A DNA stretch of 40,938 nucleotides from a virus: positions 1-40,938 of the IMG/VR virus record IMGVR_UViG_3300020020_000093. One strand, 5' to 3'. The notes under the pieces are model-generated. The model was not told where the DNA came from, made no database searches, and saw only the letters and a list, made by a program, of their open reading frames with translations. Below are positions 4,701 through 40,938 of this stretch, piece after piece. The translations under genes were made by a program, and so were the position numbers. How positions within the stretch are numbered: position 1 is the stretch's first letter; each line of letters begins with the position of its first letter.

Positions 4701-5087
4701 ATGAACGACAAGCACGACAAGACTCACAAGAAACCCCCCGCTCCCGATCTCCGCGAGGTGCGGCGGCAACTGATGGCTCAGATTGGGGCGCTGGCGCTCC
4801 CGGACCAGCAGGCCGCGGACCCCACCCTCCTGGCCGCGGGACTCAACATGTGCGCCAGCGCCGGATTGCCCGATCCGGTCATCACCGTCGAGAGCGTATC
4901 GGACGGGGTCAACGTCCTTGACGTGACCGTCTACGTCTTCACCCACTTCCGCATCCCGCAGCTAGCGTGCCGTGTGACGGAAGACGAGATGGCGCTGTAC
5001 CCGGACAGGATTGTCCAAATCTGTAAGAATGCCGGGATCCGCGCCGATTCGTTGGCGATTACCGATGACCCGCCGATAGCAGCCTAA
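4701..5087 (+). CDS. Hypothetical protein (128 aa) in late operon
   Basis: The ATG at 4701 is preferred because AAGGAAACC lies just before it and it starts 14 bases after the upstream stop; an in-frame ATG at 4647 would lie inside the previous gene. The N-terminus is Lys/His-rich, followed by a compact region with predicted strands (ITVESVSDGVNVLDVTVYVF). No known domain. It lies between two large ejection-type genes, so a small chaperone or minor virion role is possible but unproven. Confidence 0.7.
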   Translation: MNDKHDKTHKKPPAPDLREVRRQLMAQIGALALPDQQAADPTLLAAGLNMCASAGLPDPVITVESVSDGVNVLDVTVYVFTHFRIPQLACRVTEDEMALYPDRIVQICKNAGIRADSLAITDDPPIAA

Positions 5088-5167: not shown

Positions 5168-7214
5168 TGGTCAAGCACCCCCTCCGGTCACAGAGGCCGC
5201 ACGCAAGCTGGCAGAGACCGAGCGTCTGCGGCAGGAGATGATGGCGCGGGATGCGGCGCAGGCCGCGGAAGCCGAGCATGGCAGGATCAGGGGGAGCGGC
5301 GCCATTGCCAGCGACACCGATACTCTCAGCGCCCTGAGCGGGGGCGGACTGAAAGCCAAGCTGGCCAATCTGGGCATGACCGTGACGGGCCTCGATCCGC
5401 TGGCCGCGGCCCTTGGGGCGCAGGACCAGCAACAGGGCTGGTCCGAGAAGATGGGCGTCGATATCGGCAACAACATCCGGCAGGGATTCGGCATGGAACC
5501 CGTCCGGGTCCACCCCGCCGGGAATCCCCTGTCCCTGCTCCGCGGCAGCGGGGAAGGCGCGGCGCTGGCTGCGGCGGCAGTAGGCAAAGGCAAGGGCGCC
5601 GCCACCGCGGCCAAAGCAGTCAAGCTGGCCGCGCAACATCCGGTGGCAGTGGAGCAGGTGGCGAAGCAAACGGGACGGGCGCTCTCCCCACGGGCGCAGT
5701 CGCTGGCCGATTATGGCAAGCCCGTTGAGGAAGACATCGTCCGCAGCCTGGAGAATGCGTACAAGGGCGGACAGGAGATTCCCCACAAAGTGCTGGACAA
5801 GGCGACGGCCCGTCGCGCCAAGCTCCGGGAAGAGCCATCGGCGGCAGGCAAGCCCTTCTCCCAACTGAGCGATGAGGAGCGGATGGCTTTCGGCGCCAAG
5901 CATGGCGTCGATATGACGGCCAACCCAATGGAGAAGGTCATCGACCAGGGGACGGGCCGGGAGTTCCTTATTCCCGGCGGGATGAAGAAGCCGCTTACTA
6001 TCGTGGACATGCACCAGTTGCAGGCGCAGGGATACAACCCCAAGGACATGTCCCCGGAGTTCCACCGGGAACTGCACAAACTGATCGTAGGCGCCGCCAC
6101 GCCAAAGGATCTGACCGATGCCCACGTCCACCGCGGCATCAACTTCGGGCTGCTCTCACCCAACTCCCCGCTGCTCCCCAACGAGATGATGGTGGCGCGG
6201 ATGCACCCCCGCACTCCCGAGGAGATGGACAAGCTGGCCAGCTACACCCGCGGCAAGACGCTCACCAAGAGCCAACGGGCCAAGCTGAACAAGCAGATGG
6301 GTGTTGACTACGGCGTCGAGAAGAGCGCCTTGGGTGGCTTGGGGATGCGCCAGTCCCCGGATATGACCAACCTCTCGGAGTTCGCCGATAAGTTCATGCA
6401 GAACCCGGAGTTCTTCCGCAAGCAGGGGGATGAGACCTGGAAGCAGACCGCGGAACGGGTAGGTAATGAACTGCGGGGACTGGGCGCCAAGACGGCGTCG
6501 ATGGGAGTGGTCTGGCAGGACGCAGCCGGGGCCGATATCAGTGCGATGGACCGTCACATGGCGCGGAACTTCCGCCCCTTTGTGATCAACCACCCGGACA
6601 TCGGACCCAAGTTCAAGAGCAGTGCCGTCACCCGCTGGAATCAAGGAGTGGGCAAGGATCCCAAGAAGATGAAGGCATTGGGGATGCCCAAGGACGCCAC
6701 CCCGGTCAAGGACTGGGACGATCTGGTGGCACGCAAGGGAGGGGTGGACTTCACCGAGGCGCAGATCGAAACGCAGGTCAATGCGGGTCCGCGGGTCAAG
6801 GTGAAAGGCAAGGGCGGACTGTTGAATCAAAAGGTGCCGGAACACTTGCGCGATCTCCCATCGGACCCGTCCCATGTGCAGGGATTCGGCCCGATGTATG
6901 ACGCCATGATTGGGGAGAATGCCAAGTCCGCCGCGGAGAACAACCGCAGCGTGTTCGCCGAGCAGTGGGGCATCTGGGATCCCATCCGGGAGCGGGTCTC
7001 CACCCACCCCTCGATGCACCCGGATGCGTCGAAGCTCCCCCGTATGGGCGCAGGCGAACTGCTCGACGCCTTTACCGAGTTGAAGGGAGCAGGCTTTGGC
7101 GGGAAGGGGAAGGTGCGCCCCTACGACTGGAAGAAAGGCACGTTCTGGGGCTTACCCGCCGCCGCAGGAGCAGGCGGACTGCTGACCCGCGACCGGGGAA
7201 AGGCACAGGATTGA
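5154..7214 (+). CDS. Putative ejection protein with HhH-GPD DNA-glycosylase-like motif (686 aa; true start probably 5099)
   Basis: In the sequence as given, the long frame can start only at a TTG at 5154 that lacks a ribosome site. The natural start is probably GTG 5099, out of frame because of the G7 tract. The N-terminal third is Ala/Gly-rich with weakly hydrophobic stretches (about residues 130-170). Around residues 437-470 the stretch LRGLGAKTAS followed by SAMDRHMARNF resembles the helix-hairpin-helix plus catalytic Asp signature of HhH-GPD DNA glycosylases/AP lyases, with candidate catalytic Lys (GAKTAS) and Asp (MDRH). The rest has no recognised domain. By position it belongs with the large virion or ejection proteins; a DNA-processing activity carried into the host is an inference. 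Confidence 0.75.
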   Translation: MAWGGGQAPPPVTEAARKLAETERLRQEMMARDAAQAAEAEHGRIRGSGAIASDTDTLSALSGGGLKAKLANLGMTVTGLDPLAAALGAQDQQQGWSEKMGVDIGNNIRQGFGMEPVRVHPAGNPLSLLRGSGEGAALAAAAVGKGKGAATAAKAVKLAAQHPVAVEQVAKQTGRALSPRAQSLADYGKPVEEDIVRSLENAYKGGQEIPHKVLDKATARRAKLREEPSAAGKPFSQLSDEERMAFGAKHGVDMTANPMEKVIDQGTGREFLIPGGMKKPLTIVDMHQLQAQGYNPKDMSPEFHRELHKLIVGAATPKDLTDAHVHRGINFGLLSPNSPLLPNEMMVARMHPRTPEEMDKLASYTRGKTLTKSQRAKLNKQMGVDYGVEKSALGGLGMRQSPDMTNLSEFADKFMQNPEFFRKQGDETWKQTAERVGNELRGLGAKTASMGVVWQDAAGADISAMDRHMARNFRPFVINHPDIGPKFKSSAVTRWNQGVGKDPKKMKALGMPKDATPVKDWDDLVARKGGVDFTEAQIETQVNAGPRVKVKGKGGLLNQKVPEHLRDLPSDPSHVQGFGPMYDAMIGENAKSAAENNRSVFAEQWGIWDPIRERVSTHPSMHPDASKLPRMGAGELLDAFTELKGAGFGGKGKVRPYDWKKGTFWGLPAAAGAGGLLTRDRGKAQD

Positions 7215-7422
7215 AGGACCGCTCGTCGCGGGAATAGCGGCGGGTGATCCAGACGGTAGGATGGCCTTTGTAGCCGGGGCTGATGCGTGTGCCTTCCACT
7301 TCGGCGCCCCCGGCTTCGGCGTCCATATCGGCAAAGGTGGTGGTGATGAGATGCGCCGCGGAGTGTGCGGAGTCGAGTGTCTGGTGGCTCAGGATCCGTT
7401 CCAGGAAGAAGTGCGCCTTCAT
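7072..7422 (-). CDS. Hypothetical small protein (116 aa), convergent with late operon
   Basis: The ATG at 7422 follows AAGAAGT, nine bases after the stop of the membrane-protein gene at 7432-7638, so the two probably form one leftward unit. The first ~70 residues (MKAHFFLERILSHQTLDSAH...) look like a real soluble protein with a conserved-looking HPTVWITRRYSR segment. The last ~45 residues are Arg/Ser-rich and are read antisense to the 3' end of the 5154-7214 gene, so the true protein may be shorter in function. Family not recognised. Confidence 0.5.
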   Translation of the reverse strand: MKAHFFLERILSHQTLDSAHSAAHLITTTFADMDAEAGGAEVEGTRISPGYKGHPTVWITRRYSRDERSFNPVPFPGRGSAVRLLLRRRVSPRTCLSSSRRGAPSPSRQSLLPSTR

Positions 7423-7431
7423 ACTTCTTGC

Positions 7432-7638
7432 CTATCGGCGCGACTGGACTAAAGGCGGGGTCCGCTCTTCCAATCGGGTGATCCGCTGGCCCTGATCCCG
7501 CAATATCCCCTCGATCACCTCCAGCCGCCGGATGATATCGTCCAGCCGCTTGTTCTGCATCCAGGCCGCGCCGAGGATCGCTCCCACTAAAGGGAGAGTG
7601 ATCTGGAGTACGGGCATCAACTCCGGGGCAATGTGCAT
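7432..7638 (-). CDS. Small membrane protein with C-terminal coiled coil (68 aa), holin-like candidate
   Basis: The ATG at 7638 is chosen because GGAAGGGGGG lies just upstream; ATG 7653 or TTG 7665 could extend it. A hydrophobic segment (MPVLQITLPLVGAILGAAW, about residues 7-25) is followed by a heptad-patterned hydrophilic helix (LDDIIRRLEVIEGILRDQ). One transmembrane helix plus a coiled coil is seen in small phage membrane proteins, including some holin or superinfection-related proteins. It is one of four candidate holins in the window, and no endolysin is nearby. Confidence 0.65.
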   Translation of the reverse strand: MHIAPELMPVLQITLPLVGAILGAAWMQNKRLDDIIRRLEVIEGILRDQGQRITRLEERTPPLVQSRR

Positions 7639-9018: not shown

Positions 9019-9424
9019 GCGTGGCTTTCCGCAGGCGGGACCGCTCGATCTTCCGCATGGCGGCGAGAGCCTTCCGGCCCGGACGGTGGATGTCCCGCAG
9101 CCCATGCTCCGCAGCGGCGGCGCCGCTGGCGAATAGCGGGACGGTAGTGTCTGGAAGAGGAACCAGTTCCCCGGTCACAGATGCCAGCACGCGCAACGCC
9201 ATCAACTCCTTGCCCCGTCCACTGCGCTCATGGCAGACCGCCCATCCGGTGCAGAGGAAGTTGGGAGAGGTATGGCAGTGGAAGGGGCCGAGAGGCTGCT
9301 CTCCGGTGGGCTTGTCGTATTCAGGGAGTTTGTTGTACTCATGGGCGCCCCATAGCCCGGATGGCACGTCCCGGCGGTAGGGACAGGTCTCGCAGGGCTG
9401 CTCCCGGCATCGAGGCGCACTCAT
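8999..9424 (-). CDS. DUF6283-like cysteine-rich protein (141 aa)
   Basis: The ATG at 9424 overlaps the upstream gene's stop and opens MSAPRCREQPCETCPYRRDV. The PCETCPYRRDVPSG signature near the N-terminus, with later Cys/His pairs (FHCHTSPNFLCTGWAVCH), matches the DUF6283 family as I know it from phages and actinobacterial genomes. The paired Cys/His suggest a metal-binding fold. The C-terminal ~40 residues are basic. Last gene of a three-gene ATGA-coupled run; function unknown. Confidence 0.7.
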   Translation of the reverse strand: MSAPRCREQPCETCPYRRDVPSGLWGAHEYNKLPEYDKPTGEQPLGPFHCHTSPNFLCTGWAVCHERSGRGKELMALRVLASVTGELVPLPDTTVPLFASGAAAAEHGLRDIHRPGRKALAAMRKIERSRLRKATQKWPVA

Positions 9425-10893: not shown

Positions 10894-10917
10894 TGGAATG
10901 ACACCTTATCACAGGAG

Positions 10918-10972
10918 AGTGTACCGTTGGGGGGCAAAAGTGTAGTGTTCGTGTAGTCGAAAGTGTACCGTT
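10918..10972. repeat. Left repeat cluster: AGTGTACCGTT x2 and GTGTAG elements
   Basis: AGTGTACCGTT occurs at 10918-10928 and 10962-10972, 44 bases apart. GTGTAGTGT lies at 10940-10948. An 18-base arm, CGTGTAGTCGAAAGTGTA, lies at 10950-10967. The arm and the second 11-mer overlap, so bound proteins would be close or mutually exclusive. Confidence 0.85.
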
Positions 10973-11099
10973 TCGATCAATAAACATCGGCATTAGTGCA
11001 TACAGTGTATGGATATATAGGATCTTTTACGCATATGTGGGTGTATATAGGTATATACGCAATGTACATGCATATGTGCATAGGGGGGGATCCCCGCTA

Positions 11100-11200
11100 A
11101 ACGGTACATTCCATACACGAAAGCCCGTAAACATTGGTCGAAGTACTACACTTTCGACTACACGGACACTACACGATTGGGGAAAATGACTACACTTTCG
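11100..11200. repeat. Right repeat cluster, inverse of the left
   Basis: AACGGTACATT (11100-11110) is the reverse complement of the left 11-mer with one mismatch. TACACTTTCGACTACACG (11147-11164) is the perfect 18-base reverse complement of 10950-10967. ACACTACAC (11166-11174) mirrors GTGTAGTGT. ACTACACTTTCG recurs at 11145-11156 and 11189-11200. Confidence 0.85.
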
Positions 11201-11373
11201 CCTTCCCTTCTCCTTTTGGCAGGCGCCGCGGGGTGGAAGGCGGTATCTCCTGGCTGCACGGGCGAAGGATGGGCGGGATATTGGGCGGAAACGGCCCTTC
11301 CTGCCATCGGGGCGCCCCGGGTGAGGGGTTGGAGGGTCTGGAGCGGTTGTGCTTGCGTATAGGCGCGGAATCG

Positions 11374-11389: not shown

Positions 11390-11839
11390 ATGGCAGGCCA
11401 TCCGGTAAAGCGTGCGATGTTGGCGGCGATAGCCGATAAGGGCGGGGTTGAGTGGGTCTACGCGCAGGTGGCCAACGGCAGGACGATGTGGAGTATTGCA
11501 CGGGAGTTGGAGACGAGTCGCAATGTGCTGGCGGACTGGCTGAATGTAGACGCGGAACGCAAGGCGATGTACCACGCCGCGCGTGCGGCCAGCGCCGCCG
11601 CTTTGGCCGAGGAATCGATGGAAATAGCGGACAAAGCCAGCGAACTCGGCACGTCCAAGGCGCGGTTGCAGATGGAGTCCAGGCAGTGGCTGGCTGGCGT
11701 CTACAATCGCGAGGAGTTTGGGGTCAAGCAGACCGCGGTACAGGTCAACATCGGCGCCTTGCATATCGATGCGATGCGGCAGTTTAACGCCAGCAACCCA
11801 TCCACGCAAGTCATTGATACCAAAGCACTTCCTGAATAG
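11390..11839 (+). CDS. terS: Terminase small subunit, Sf6 gp1-like (149 aa)
   Basis: The small subunit recognises the packaging start site on phage DNA and hands it to the large subunit. The N-terminal part holds a helix-turn-helix (TMWSIARELETSRNVLADWLNVD, about residues 32-54). A long helical region follows (AAALAEESMEIADKA, ARLQMESRQWLAGVYNREEFG) that closely parallels the Sf6 small terminase pattern (EIADNA ... ARLRVDTRKWALARM). It is unusual in lying far from terL (27279), alone on its strand between two leftward clusters. The mirrored repeats upstream and the tandem repeat downstream are candidate recognition sites. Confidence 0.75.
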   Translation: MAGHPVKRAMLAAIADKGGVEWVYAQVANGRTMWSIARELETSRNVLADWLNVDAERKAMYHAARAASAAALAEESMEIADKASELGTSKARLQMESRQWLAGVYNREEFGVKQTAVQVNIGALHIDAMRQFNASNPSTQVIDTKALPE

Positions 11840-11997: not shown

Positions 11998-12059
11998 GGG
12001 TCCGGGGCGCCGCGGGTCCGGGGCGCCGCGGGTCCGGGGCGCCGCGGGTCCGGGGCGCT
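11998..12059. repeat. 16-bp tandem repeat, 3.9 copies
   Basis: GGGTCCGGGGCGCCGC is repeated exactly at 11998-12013, 12014-12029 and 12030-12045, then as a 14-base partial copy at 12046-12059 (last two bases CT). Each unit holds the palindrome GGCGCC. It lies about 160 bp after the small terminase stop, in a non-coding gap (11840-12242) with no convincing gene. It could be a packaging (pac) or protein-binding site, or simply a slippage-prone GC tract. Confidence 0.85.
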
Positions 12060-12187
12060 GGCGGCGCGGCGGCGCGGTGGCCCCCCTTCGATCAGCGGCG
12101 GGGAGCGAGATAGTTGTGGGACTCCTCAGGCACCGTCCCCAATAAATTCCCATGTGCAATGGGACCGACGGCCCTATAAACCGTCCC

Positions 12188-27238: not shown

Positions 27239-27269
27239 TTGCCAGTACTAAGCGGTTAGGTGGTACACT
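27239..27269 (+). promoter_or_regulatory. Late promoter with palindromic operator, before terL
   Basis: TTGCCA (27239-27244), a 19-base spacer and the extended -10 TGG-TACACT (27261-27269), nine bases before the ATG at 27279. The spacer holds CTAAGCGGTTAGG (27248-27260), an imperfect palindrome that recurs at the portal gene start. A repressor or activator bound there would control the late operon. Confidence 0.55.
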
Positions 27270-27278
27270 TCCGGTGAA

Positions 27279-28694
27279 ATGCCAGCGCCTGCTGCGGAGT
27301 CCCCTTTCATCCATTTCATGCGGTTGTATCATGCGGACCCGTGCTTGTTCGTTAGGGAGGTGTTGGGGGCGACACCGGATCCGGCGCAGGCTGAGATTCT
27401 CCAGGCTGTAGCGGCAGGACACCGCAGGCTCTCTATTCGGAGCGGTCATGGAATCGGCAAGTCTACGACAGCGGCGTGGCTGATGCTCTGGACGCTCTTC
27501 ACTAAGTTTCCAAGCAAGACCGTGGTGACGGCGCCAACTACCGCACAGTTGTTCGATGCGCTGTTTAGCGAATTGAAACGGTGGGCATCGAAGCTTCCCC
27601 TTCCCCTTCAGGAACTGATCGAAGTTAAGGCCGAACGCATCGAGTTGAAGAACGCTCCATCGGAGTCATTCATCACCGCCAGAACGAGCCGTGCAGAGCA
27701 GCCGGAAGCCCTGCAAGGCGTCCACAGTGATTTCGTTCTCCTCATTGCCGATGAAGCTTCGGGCATCCCGGAGTCCGTATTCGAGGCGGCAAGCGGCTCG
27801 ATGTCCGGGCATCATGCGACGACGATCCTGTTGGGCAATCCGGTGCGATCAAGCGGTTTCTTCTACGACACCCATCATAAACTCGCCCCCTACTGGAAGA
27901 CCTTTGTCGTCCCCTGCCACGCCAGTCCCCGCGTCTCTCCTGCCTACATCGAGGAGATGGCGACACGCTACGGCATCGACTCCAATGCCTACCGCATTCG
28001 CGTTCTTGGTGAGTTCCCCCGCGCAGACGACGACACGCTTATCGCAATGGAATTGATCGAAGGGTCAACGACTCGCGATGTCGATCCGATCCTGGGCGCC
28101 CCTCTCGTCTGGGGTCTGGACATCGCAAGGTACGGCCCGGACTCGACCGTGCTGCTACAGCGCCGCGGCAACGCCGTCACCTCGATCACCCGCTGGAGCA
28201 GGACAGATACGATGGAGACCGTAGGGCGGGTCAAGATGGCATGGGATACCGCGGCGCCGCAGGATCGCCCCGAGGAGATCTTGGCCGATGTCATCGGCAT
28301 TGGCGCTGGCGTGGTGGATCGTCTGCGCGAACTCAAGCTTCCGGTGCGGGGGGTCAACGTGAGCGAGTCCCCATCGATCAAGGGCGGACACCACAACCTC
28401 CGGGCCGAGCTTTGGTGCAGCATGAAGGCATGGTTTGAGAAGCGCGATGTCCGCATCCCGCCGAACGAGCATCTGATCTCCGAACTCGCCGCCTGCAAGT
28501 TTCGCATCACTTCGGCTGGCAAGATTCAGATCGAGTCCAAGGATGAGGCACGCAGCCGCGGACTCCCCTCTCCCGATGTCGCGGACGCATTGATGCTCAC
28601 CTTCGCCAGCACTGCGGCGACATCGATCCACGGCTGGTCCCCATCCGGGGCTTGGTCTAAGCCATTGCGCCGGAATCAGTTGGGTATTGTTTAA
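27279..28694 (+). CDS. terL: Terminase large subunit (471 aa)
   Basis: The ATPase-nuclease motor that cuts concatemers and fills the capsid. Walker A SGHGIGKST (near residue 58), Walker B LLIADEASG (near 158) and coupling LLGNP form the ATPase. The RNase H-like nuclease carries acidic residues in GLDIARYGPD (near 280), DVIGIGAG (near 338) and SPDVADAL (near 432). All expected motifs are intact. The ATG has no ribosome site and follows a -10 by nine bases (leaderless). Unusually, the small subunit is about 16 kb away at 11390. Confidence 0.92.
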   Translation: MPAPAAESPFIHFMRLYHADPCLFVREVLGATPDPAQAEILQAVAAGHRRLSIRSGHGIGKSTTAAWLMLWTLFTKFPSKTVVTAPTTAQLFDALFSELKRWASKLPLPLQELIEVKAERIELKNAPSESFITARTSRAEQPEALQGVHSDFVLLIADEASGIPESVFEAASGSMSGHHATTILLGNPVRSSGFFYDTHHKLAPYWKTFVVPCHASPRVSPAYIEEMATRYGIDSNAYRIRVLGEFPRADDDTLIAMELIEGSTTRDVDPILGAPLVWGLDIARYGPDSTVLLQRRGNAVTSITRWSRTDTMETVGRVKMAWDTAAPQDRPEEILADVIGIGAGVVDRLRELKLPVRGVNVSESPSIKGGHHNLRAELWCSMKAWFEKRDVRIPPNEHLISELAACKFRITSAGKIQIESKDEARSRGLPSPDVADALMLTFASTAATSIHGWSPSGAWSKPLRRNQLGIV

Positions 28695-28716
28695 TTGAGT
28701 GAAAACGTGGTATACC
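28687..28716 (+). promoter_or_regulatory. Extended -10 promoter before the portal gene
   Basis: TTGTTT (28687-28692), an 18-base spacer and TGG-TATACC (28708-28716), seven bases before the ATG at 28724, again leaderless. The -10 region resembles that of terL. Palindromic sites follow at 28742 and 28785. Confidence 0.5.
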
Positions 28717-28723
28717 CTCTCCA

Positions 28724-31075
28724 ATGGCCGATTTCCTCAATCCTAAGCGGTTAGGTCAAACACTTCTACCTTCCGATCCAAGTGCTAACCGCTTAGGTGA
28801 GGCAGAGTACGAAGTGCCGGAAACCCCCGTTGAGGAAGAAACCGGGATGTCCGAGGAGGATCTCCAGGCGTGGATCTCCAAGGAAGTCAACGATGCCGAA
28901 CAAGTGATGGAAGCCATCCAGGATGACCGCATCAAGGCTGGCCGATACTATGACGGCGAGTTGTTTGGCAATGAGGAGAAGGGCCGCTCCCAAGTCATTT
29001 CCCGTGACGTGCATGACACCGTCCATGCTCTCCTGCCATCGCTGATCCGCATCTTCTTTGGCGCCGAACATGTTGCAGAATTTGTCCCGCGAGGCCCGGA
29101 GGACGTGGCCATAGCGGAGCAGATGACGGACTATTGCGATTACGTTTTGAAGCAGGAGAACGAAGGTTTCCTCCTGCTCCACAGCGTATTCAAAGATGCG
29201 TTGATCAAGAGCATGGGAGTGTCCATGTGGTGGTGGGACGACTCCTCCGAGACCTTTGAGGATGTCTACACCGGACTCGACATGGAAGCGGCCATGCTGG
29301 TCATTCAGGACGCCAAGCTCATCGGCGCCAAGGTCACTCTGGGCGATAGCGAGGACTTCGATCCGATCACCGGGAAAGCACTGATCGATGTCACCGTGAA
29401 GCGGGAACGACACCGCGCCCGGATCCGCGTCGAAGCAGTGCCGCCGGAAGAGTTTATCGTCAACCAAACCGCGAAGTGCATCGACTCGGCACGGCTCGTT
29501 GGGCGCCGATGGTACCGCAGCGTTTCCGATCTCGTCTCTAAGGGCTATGACCCCGAGGACGTGGAAGAGGCCGCGGGTGGGGATTGGGCATCCCTCTCGC
29601 AGCAAGAGGCTCAGGAGCGGTTCCCGGCCACGGCGCCTTACCCGGACGATCCGATGGATACGGCGAACCGCCCTGTGCTGTACGTCGAAGCGTACTGCCT
29701 GGTCGATTACAACGGCGACGGCATTGCGGAACTGCGGCAGATCTGCTGCATCGGCGAGGGGCTGAAAGTCGTCCGCAACGAGCCTGCCGATGAGAAGCCG
29801 TTCGCTCTCTTTTGCAGTGATCCGGTCCCCCATACGATCTTCGGCAACTCGGTGGCCGATCAGACGATGGACATCCAACTCATCAAGAGTTCGATCCTGC
29901 GCCGGATGCTCGACTCCCTGTCCCAAGCCGTGACCCCGCGGACATCGGTAGTGCAGGGGCAAGTCAACATTGAAGACGTTCTCAACAACGAGAATGGCGC
30001 CATCATCCGGCAGTTGGCCCCCGGCATGGTGCAGCCTTTCAATGTCCCGTATGTGGGCAAGGAAGCCCACCCGATGCTCGAGTATTGGGACCGTGTGAAA
30101 GAGGCCAGGACGGGCATCAGCAAAGCTTCCGCGGGTCTCGACGCCGATGCATTGCAGTCGTCCACAAGAGCAGCCGTCGCAGCCACCGTCAACGCCGCGC
30201 ATCAGCATATCGAGCTAACCGCCCGAGTGTTTGCCGAGGTGGGCATGAAGCGGATGATGAAGGGGATCCTGGGCCTTGCCTGCCGCCACCAGGACCGGGA
30301 GCGGGTGGTGCGCCTGCGAGGCAAGTGGACTAAGGTCTCCCCGGCAAGCTGGAACGCCGATGCGGACGTGACAGTCAACGTGGCCGTTGGCAGTGCTACC
30401 GAGGAAGAACGCGCACGCGCTCTCCAGGAGATCGCCAAACGCCAGGAGGGAATCCTCCAGCAGTACGGCCCCGGCAACCCCTTGGTGACCGTCGCGCAGT
30501 ACCGCTACACGCTCTCCAAGATCATCGAATCCGCAGGCTTTCGCGACCCCTCGCAATTCCTCAATGAGATCCCGCCCAACTGGCAACCTCCCCCTCCCCA
30601 GAACAAAGAGACCCCGGAGCAGATTACAGCGAAAATGCTGGCCGAGGTACAGGTTAAGCAGATCCAGGCGGACATCGAAATGAAAGCCGCGGAGTTGCAG
30701 CTTAAGCGGGAAGAGATGCTCCTCAAGAATGACCGGGAGCGGGACAAGAACGAAGCAGAGGTCATGCTCAAGACGCGGGAATTGGAACTCAAGTATCAGG
30801 GCGAGGTGGACCGCAACTCGATCAATCTGATGTTGGAGCGGGAACGGATGGCTATGCCGCCCAAGCCCCCGGAAGGGGCGCAGGCGCCGCCACCGGAACC
30901 TCCCCCTCAAGAGCCGCCACCGCCACCTCCCCCACCGCCAACGGACCCGCCGCCAATGGGTCCGCCAATGGGCGGGGGCGGACCACCAGAGCCGCCGATG
31001 ATACCTGCGGAGCCTCAGGGTCCACCCCCGCCCATGCCCCCGCCTATGCCGCCACCGGAGGAGATAGATGGCTAA
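28724..31075 (+). CDS. Portal protein, podovirus type (783 aa)
   Basis: Forms the dodecameric ring through which DNA enters and leaves the capsid. EDLQAWISKEVNDAEQ, RSQVISRDVHDTVHALLPSLIRIFFG, VPPEEFIVN, and VADQTMDIQLIKSSILRRMLDSL with NNENGAIIRQ form the ordered pattern of large P22/SU10-type portals. The C-terminal 200 residues are a long charged helix (barrel/crown type) and then a poly-Pro tail (from about residue 715). The ATG has no ribosome site and sits seven bases after a -10. It overlaps the next gene. Confidence 0.88.
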   Translation: MADFLNPKRLGQTLLPSDPSANRLGEAEYEVPETPVEEETGMSEEDLQAWISKEVNDAEQVMEAIQDDRIKAGRYYDGELFGNEEKGRSQVISRDVHDTVHALLPSLIRIFFGAEHVAEFVPRGPEDVAIAEQMTDYCDYVLKQENEGFLLLHSVFKDALIKSMGVSMWWWDDSSETFEDVYTGLDMEAAMLVIQDAKLIGAKVTLGDSEDFDPITGKALIDVTVKRERHRARIRVEAVPPEEFIVNQTAKCIDSARLVGRRWYRSVSDLVSKGYDPEDVEEAAGGDWASLSQQEAQERFPATAPYPDDPMDTANRPVLYVEAYCLVDYNGDGIAELRQICCIGEGLKVVRNEPADEKPFALFCSDPVPHTIFGNSVADQTMDIQLIKSSILRRMLDSLSQAVTPRTSVVQGQVNIEDVLNNENGAIIRQLAPGMVQPFNVPYVGKEAHPMLEYWDRVKEARTGISKASAGLDADALQSSTRAAVAATVNAAHQHIELTARVFAEVGMKRMMKGILGLACRHQDRERVVRLRGKWTKVSPASWNADADVTVNVAVGSATEEERARALQEIAKRQEGILQQYGPGNPLVTVAQYRYTLSKIIESAGFRDPSQFLNEIPPNWQPPPPQNKETPEQITAKMLAEVQVKQIQADIEMKAAELQLKREEMLLKNDRERDKNEAEVMLKTRELELKYQGEVDRNSINLMLERERMAMPPKPPEGAQAPPPEPPPQEPPPPPPPPPTDPPPMGPPMGGGGPPEPPMIPAEPQGPPPPMPPPMPPPEEIDG
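28742..28797. repeat. Inverted pair of CCTAAGCGGTTAG inside the portal start
   Basis: CCTAAGCGGTTAGG (28742-28755) and its inverse CTAACCGCTTAGG (28785-28797) are perfect over 13 bases. The same 13-mer lies in the terL promoter (27248-27260), and a variant with one extra base, CCTAAGCAGGTTAGG, lies at 38186-38200. The copy at 28743 and that at 27248 also share the following ACACTT at the same spacing. Confidence 0.8.
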
Positions 31076-37984: not shown

Positions 37985-38190
37985 AGCTATCCGATCCCCC
38001 CATCCGCTATGACCAGAAGATCCAGCGGACCCTCCAGCATACGGTCGAGCAGGCCGATGAGCAGAACCGCAAGAAGGGGGCTGACATCGAGGTCCACCCC
38101 GCCCGATTAATCCTCCGCGCCCCCAACGGAAGCCGTTGGATGGTGCAGGTTTCCAATGGTGGAATTTTGAGCACGGTAGCTCTCCCCTAA
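37981..38190 (+). CDS. Small hypothetical tail-region protein (69 aa)
   Basis: ATGA overlap with the gp10-like gene. A helical charged N-terminus (YDQKIQRTLQHTVEQADEQNRKK) is followed by a strand pair (HPARLILRAPNGSRWMVQVSNGG). Short proteins of this layout often follow gp10-like genes in podoviruses; exact role unknown. Confidence 0.65.
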   Translation: MKLSDPPIRYDQKIQRTLQHTVEQADEQNRKKGADIEVHPARLILRAPNGSRWMVQVSNGGILSTVALP

Positions 38191-40167: not shown

Positions 40168-40938
40168 ATGCCTGACTTCCGCAAGAGTATCGAGGACGCC
40201 AATTTCAAGCCCGTGATGGAGCGGATCTCCACCACCGGACCCAATGCCGCGGGGGAGCAGGAAACGTGGCAGAACCCCCGTGATCAGTTGAGCCAGTCTT
40301 CCGCCGCGGAGCTAGCAGAACTGATGGGCGCCACCCAATCCCAAGTGCGCTATGAGGCTGGACCGTACTCGCAGAACAAGCCGCAGTGGCAGATCGATTT
40401 CGGTGGCCCGGACAAATACGATGCGGCAATGGTCTGGGAGCGGTACCAGAAGAACCCCGAGTCCTTCAACCAGCAGATGGCCGATGAACTCAAGTCATCG
40501 GGAGGCCCGTCCGTGGTGCAGCAGGAGTTCGACGCCGGGAAGCTGAACGGGGGACACGGCGCTGGCGCAGGCGGCGCGGGTGGCGGGGGCGGCATGGGAC
40601 TGACGCCGGGACCGAAATGGCCCGATGCGCCGCCCCCCAACATCCCCGGTCCCGATTGGGAGATGCCTGCGGTCCCCGGACCCACGGGCAAGGATCCGGT
40701 CCCGCTCCATCCCGGCACGGGGGTCCAGGATCCCGGCTCCTACAAACCAGGCGGGATCCCGGCAACTCCATCGACCGGATTCCCGCGACCGATCGATCTC
40801 ACCAACGGCCAGCCAGCAGGCGCCAATGCCGGATCGAATGCCGTGGACGCGCAACTGGAGTTGCCGCAAGTGGTGACGCCGAGGGGATACACCCCGCGGC
40901 CCTACATCGACCAGCCCGTCTCGCTCCTCAATTCGAGC
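40168..40938 (+). CDS. N-terminal part of Gly/Pro-rich virion-associated protein (continues at 133)
   Basis: The frame opens at ATG 40168 and is still open at the last base; it continues in frame at base 133 and ends at 261, giving about 299 aa. Residues 1-110 are a compact acidic region (SSAAELAELMGATQSQVRYEAGP, QWQIDFGGPDKYDAAMVWERYQ). A Gly-run (AGAGGAGGGGG) and a Pro/Gly linker follow. No known domain. Its place after the Gln/Ala-rich gene suggests a virion or ejection role. Confidence 0.75.
   Translation, partial: MPDFRKSIEDANFKPVMERISTTGPNAAGEQETWQNPRDQLSQSSAAELAELMGATQSQVRYEAGPYSQNKPQWQIDFGGPDKYDAAMVWERYQKNPESFNQQMADELKSSGGPSVVQQEFDAGKLNGGHGAGAGGAGGGGGMGLTPGPKWPDAPPPNIPGPDWEMPAVPGPTGKDPVPLHPGTGVQDPGSYKPGGIPATPSTGFPRPIDLTNGQPAGANAGSNAVDAQLELPQVVTPRGYTPRPYIDQPVSLLNSS
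40813..40938. repeat. Right copy of 126-bp terminal direct repeat
   Basis: Identical to bases 7-132. Taken together the two ends close the sequence into a circle of about 40,812 bases with an intact reading frame across the join. Confidence 0.9.

Follow-up and report, generated by a model that had tools for sequence, protein, structure and literature searches.

Dyad sequences as putative operators at the leaderless-type terL and portal promoters of a temperate phage

The window and its packaging genes

The window, a 40,938-nt stretch that spans IMG/VR record IMGVR_UViG_3300020020_000093, is the near-complete genome of a temperate phage. The features relevant to this study are centred on the genes for the large terminase (terL) and the portal protein, and are listed here in order of position.

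11390..11839, plus strand: terS, Sf6-like small terminase (PF20901, 4.5e-13), a candidate binder of the dyads
15.3-16.9 kb: integrase gene
Just before the integrase: excisionase-like HTH_17 protein
27239..27244, plus strand: weak -35-like TTGCCA of terL, 19-bp spacer
27248..27259: dyad site 1, CTAA-GCGG-TTAG, 4 bp 5' of the terL -10 hexamer
27261..27269, plus strand: extended -10 of terL, TGG-TACACT, 9 nt before the ATG, leaderless-type
27279..28694, plus strand: terL, large terminase (phrog_2, 1e-42)
28708..28716, plus strand: extended -10 of the portal gene, TGG-TATACC, 7 nt before the ATG
28724..31075, plus strand: portal gene, SU10-type (PF23899, 4e-189)
28742..28755: dyad site 2, CCTAA-GCGG-TTAGG, at +19 in the portal gene
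28784..28797: dyad site 3, GCTAA-CCGC-TTAGG, 42 bp past site 2 and at +61 from the portal ATG
32309: capsid gene, SU10-type

A Prim-Pol/D5-type primase and a family A DNA polymerase are also encoded. The ends of the window (40494-40938 and 1-166) appear to be joined, because matches to the related phage G001, described below, run on from 40494 back to 166. Circular permutation of a near-complete genome is the probable explanation. No tRNAs, which were sought as a clue to the host, were found, and a scan of bacterial genomes for a related prophage gave best matches of no more than 42% identity.

Dyad sites and adjoining promoters

The pattern CTAA-N4-TTAG occurs three times in 40.9 kb (at 27248, 28743 and 28785), each time at the start of terL or of the portal gene. 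Exact copies of the 13-mer CTAAGCGGTTAGG are situated at 27248-27260 and 28743-28755, and a third, on the minus strand at 28784-28796, matches at 12 of 13 positions (CTAAGCGGTTAGC); the full 14-mer CCTAAGCGGTTAGG is found at 28742 only. Searches with CTAANCGNTTAG returned three matches genome-wide, and still three when one mismatch was allowed, a number never reached in shuffled sequences (mean 0.27 with one mismatch allowed). None of 100 genomes simulated with a third-order Markov model reproduced the sites, and a motif matrix scored the three at 20-22 bits, as against 6.6 for the next best place in the genome. It is apparent that the sites share conserved CTAA/TTAG half-sites in dyad symmetry around a free centre, and that both the terL dyad and the portal dyads are placed at a promoter. 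The palindrome reported by the first-pass annotation at terL, with its inverted pair just inside the portal gene, is thus confirmed by position, shuffling and matrix scores, and the genome-wide count, confined to terL and portal, shows no random scatter. Two details of that annotation fared less well: the ACACTT that follows two of the copies is present in the window but is not conserved in G001, and the expanded copy proposed at 38186 does exist but is lacking in its G001 counterpart, and was dropped.

The -10 element of terL in the window is TGGTACACT (hexamer 27264-27269) and that of the portal gene is TGGTATACC (hexamer 28711-28716). Their G001 equivalents are TGGTACAAT for terL, 8 nt from the ATG, and TGGTATACA for the portal gene, 7 nt from the ATG as in the window. 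Thus, in both phages and for both genes, TGGTAYA is found 16-18 nt 5' of the ATG, the hexamer ending 7-9 nt from it; among the 27 starts of the window and 16 of G001 that were examined (43 in all), it was found at terL and portal only. Matches to AGGAGG amount to 2-4 of 6 positions at terL and portal, and to 4-6 at most, though not all, of the other starts examined. Since an extended -10 is situated 7-9 nt before the ATG and there is little or no Shine-Dalgarno sequence, terL and the portal gene look leaderless in both phages. Published leaderless genes carry TANNNT approximately 12 bp before the start (PMC3160421), a pattern that fits both terL hexamers (TACACT and TACAAT); the portal hexamers (TATACC and TATACA) are without the final T. 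The genes described here partly resemble such -10-adjacent leaderless genes, which often lack a Shine-Dalgarno sequence, but those are a feature of host genomes, whereas these are two phage genes among many that have one (PMC3160421, PMC12340547). Site 1 had been placed between the -35 and -10 elements of terL; the -10 looks real, but the -35-like TTGCCA is weak, is not conserved, was missed by a simple sigma-70 scan, which returned no terL -35, and has no equivalent in G001.

Conservation in related phages

G001 (39,370 bp) was the single close relative found in IMG/VR. Its TerL, portal and capsid proteins are 83, 79 and 78% identical to those of the window at the amino acid level, and its TerS 63%; the structural module is collinear (approximately 70% nucleotide identity), and the early module is almost wholly different. 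The terL-side dyad, 18-19 bp before the ATG, is retained in G001, where CTAACCGTTTAG at 7573-7584 is the counterpart of site 1. The portal pair is represented by CTAACCGGTTAG (9064-9075) and CTAACCGCTTTG (9106-9117), with a 42-bp spacing identical to that in the window. Upstream of terL, the two phages agree at 10 of 12 positions in the dyad core and 9 of 11 in the -10 block, compared with 16 of 60 further upstream; each portal core agrees at 11 of 12 positions, compared with 9 of the 30 bp between them. Almost all of the changed core bases are at N positions, one half-site change (TTTG for TTAG) being observed in the second portal site of G001. Such variation at the N positions, with the half-sites mostly kept, fits a dimer that contacts two half-sites, and the persistence of the dyads in place despite the divergence of the DNA around them makes a docking site for a regulatory protein their most likely role. 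G001 has extra sites at 7373 and, with one mismatch, at 6867, both between terS and terL. All of its dyads whose centre is 4 bp long fall within the stretch from terS to the portal start; CTAACCGTTAG, at 4993, is an 11-bp dyad centred on 3 bp, and no dyad was found in the other (last) 19.4 kb of that genome.

In the relatives screened, conservation of the motif does not extend further. It occupies the same three places in G001 but is absent from the terL and portal positions of approximately 80 more distant TerL relatives (60-66% identity), in most of which terL and portal are separated by other genes. Pattern scans of IMG/VR (dyad plus TGGTA; dyad pairs) returned G001 only, besides unrelated or coincidental matches, and searches for TerS in phage records and IMG/VR revealed no relative beyond G001. 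The motif is carried by two genomes only, the window and G001.

A different sequence in a comparable layout was observed in L003, in which terL directly precedes the portal gene, as in the window. Within 6.5 kb, exactly three perfect copies of the near-palindrome CTCCTGGRGCY are present: one is situated 138 bp upstream of terL, with no recognisable -10 adjoining, and the other two form an inverted pair where the portal gene starts. By itself this pair had a p value of 0.005 in simulations, and the shared 11-mer one of 0.014, and both together were obtained in 0 of 1000 trials. Because L003 was picked out among approximately 70 relatives screened for inverted repeats, this layout is suggestive rather than proof. 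In L161 a single dyad, CACTACCCGTAGTG, is found at the portal start (L161:2187-2200, CACTA-CCCG-TAGTG, the same 5-4-5 format) and none at terL.

The position of terS was observed to vary: it is 16 kb away from terL in the window; in G001 it lies on the opposite strand, approximately 1.4 kb upstream of that gene, and in L003 it immediately precedes terL. It is thus a packaging gene of shifting position. Another relative, Sinorhizobium phage phiM5, has an annotated 357-bp direct terminal repeat (L120:1-357) directly upstream of terL, which bears on the location of packaging ends in this group.

Possible roles of the dyads

It was of interest to consider whether the portal copies are maintained as DNA, as RNA or as peptide. 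Both portal sites use TTA, although this codon accounts for 2.8% of the leucine codons in the window. When the portal sequence was recoded synonymously, keeping the peptide and the phage's own codon usage, the window peptide regained both sites in 0.01% of trials, and the G001 peptide its one exact site in 0.075%. A hairpin formed by the 5' part of the portal mRNA would have a 13-bp stem, with folding z scores of -3.0 (window) and -3.9 (G001). In the window, however, it is not stronger than in synonymous recodings (p 0.16-0.26; inner loop 0.98), in G001 the difference is marginal (p 0.04-0.08), and the terL copy is a single dyad upstream of its own -10; a hairpin function is very improbable. 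Still harder to credit is a peptide motif (RLG...NRLG) in the portal protein combined with chance: RLG and NR[LF]G are retained in both portals, but the terL copies are noncoding, the TTA codons appear chosen, and the N-terminal peptide was not found in other portals, so this explanation is largely refuted. Because recodings seldom yield the sites, the hairpin is unsupported in the window and the peptide is absent elsewhere, the portal copies are, as judged from codon choice, selected as DNA.

The reading favoured here, with a probability of about 0.58, is that a dimeric DNA-binding protein, which probably acts as a repressor, uses the dyads as operators at the terL and portal promoters, both of which look leaderless. 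The first-pass suggestion of a shared late-gene operator is well supported by sites at both genes, their conserved place, their dyad form, promoter adjacency and DNA-level selection. From the sites, the promoter-like -10 elements, conservation and this selection, all of them properties of the sequence, we infer binding, its timing, and repression in preference to activation, the last because the dyad positions would block RNA polymerase. The putative dimer would recognise CTAA-NCGN-TTAG. At terL it would sit directly upstream of the extended -10, where polymerase must bind; at the portal gene, two dimers bound shortly past the start, with four helical turns between them, would block polymerase leaving the leaderless promoter, and might form a loop with the terL site, 1.5 kb distant. 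Most likely, the protein would keep both packaging genes repressed up to the late phase of lytic growth, or during lysogeny, or would shut them off by feedback. The operator-controlled promoters of phage lambda (OR/OL) likewise have short dyads at or near a promoter, several sites in helical phase and possible looping, but those are early promoters, whereas here terL and portal appear leaderless and no CI-like gene was identified. Counting against operators are the restriction of the motif to two genomes, the lack, terS aside, of any repressor or activator gene found in common between the two phages, the absence of sites from every early or lysogeny region, which would be odd for a lysogeny repressor, and the distance of the L003 terL-side copy from its start.

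The main rival, an unlikely one that corresponds to the terminase site suggested by the first-pass annotation, is that the dyads are recognised by TerS as a pac region overlapping late promoters, any transcriptional effect being indirect or an additional function. A binding role for TerS, whether or not packaging is involved, owes this rank to its being the only DNA-binding protein clearly common to both phages (RNVLADWLN in its HTH region is identical) and to a precedent in SPP1, where the pac sequence overlaps with both the late promoters and the 5' end of gene 1, pacL and pacR being bound by TerS (PMC6316719). The confinement of the 4-bp-centre sites of G001 to the interval from terS to the portal start is also in its favour. 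The SPP1 element, however, is at terS, whereas the dyads are spread over the terL-portal region (PMC6316719); they extend over 1.5-2.2 kb and hug promoters, one abutting a -10, the distant terS of the window has no site near it, and contigs pass through the terL region mid-contig with no end there. A combined role, in which TerS doubles as a regulator and the dyads both mark DNA for packaging and silence terL and portal, site and TerS co-diverging between window/G001 and L003, is quite unlikely.

Activators of the MerR type bind a site within a 19-bp spacer. The location of the terL site in a spacer of that length, behind a weak -35, would suit late-gene activation of the MerR-like or Ltr/RinA-like kind, but the portal sites are downstream of their promoter, an unusual place for activators, and the -35 is missing in G001; this explanation is decidedly improbable. 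Ltr/RinA of staphylococcal phages offers a likeness in the dedicated control of a packaging and structural gene block in temperate phages, but phi13 Ltr works through a set of four direct repeats, from -107 to -42 and thus upstream of the -35, that drives one long transcript, whereas the dyads are at the -10 spacer and past the start, at two separate genes (PMC13123087).

Under the operator reading, the motor gene and the portal gene would each seem to have a leaderless promoter and an operator of their own, an arrangement that outlasted the exchange of the adjacent early module and is possibly paralleled, with another sequence in the same layout, in a second lineage. Late phage genes are usually transcribed from one distant promoter. 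If true, this would be a simple system in which to study how a phage controls the amount of its packaging machinery.

Repeats of other kinds were observed on either side of terS. An AT-rich region upstream of it (10915-11203) contains GAAAGTGTACCGTT and ACTACACTTTCG, in pairs spaced 44 bp and in inverted arrangement, and looks like another regulatory region, one without CTAA dyads. After terS, at 12000-12060, there are tandem repeats of approximately 16 bp (GGGTCCGGGGCGCCGC).
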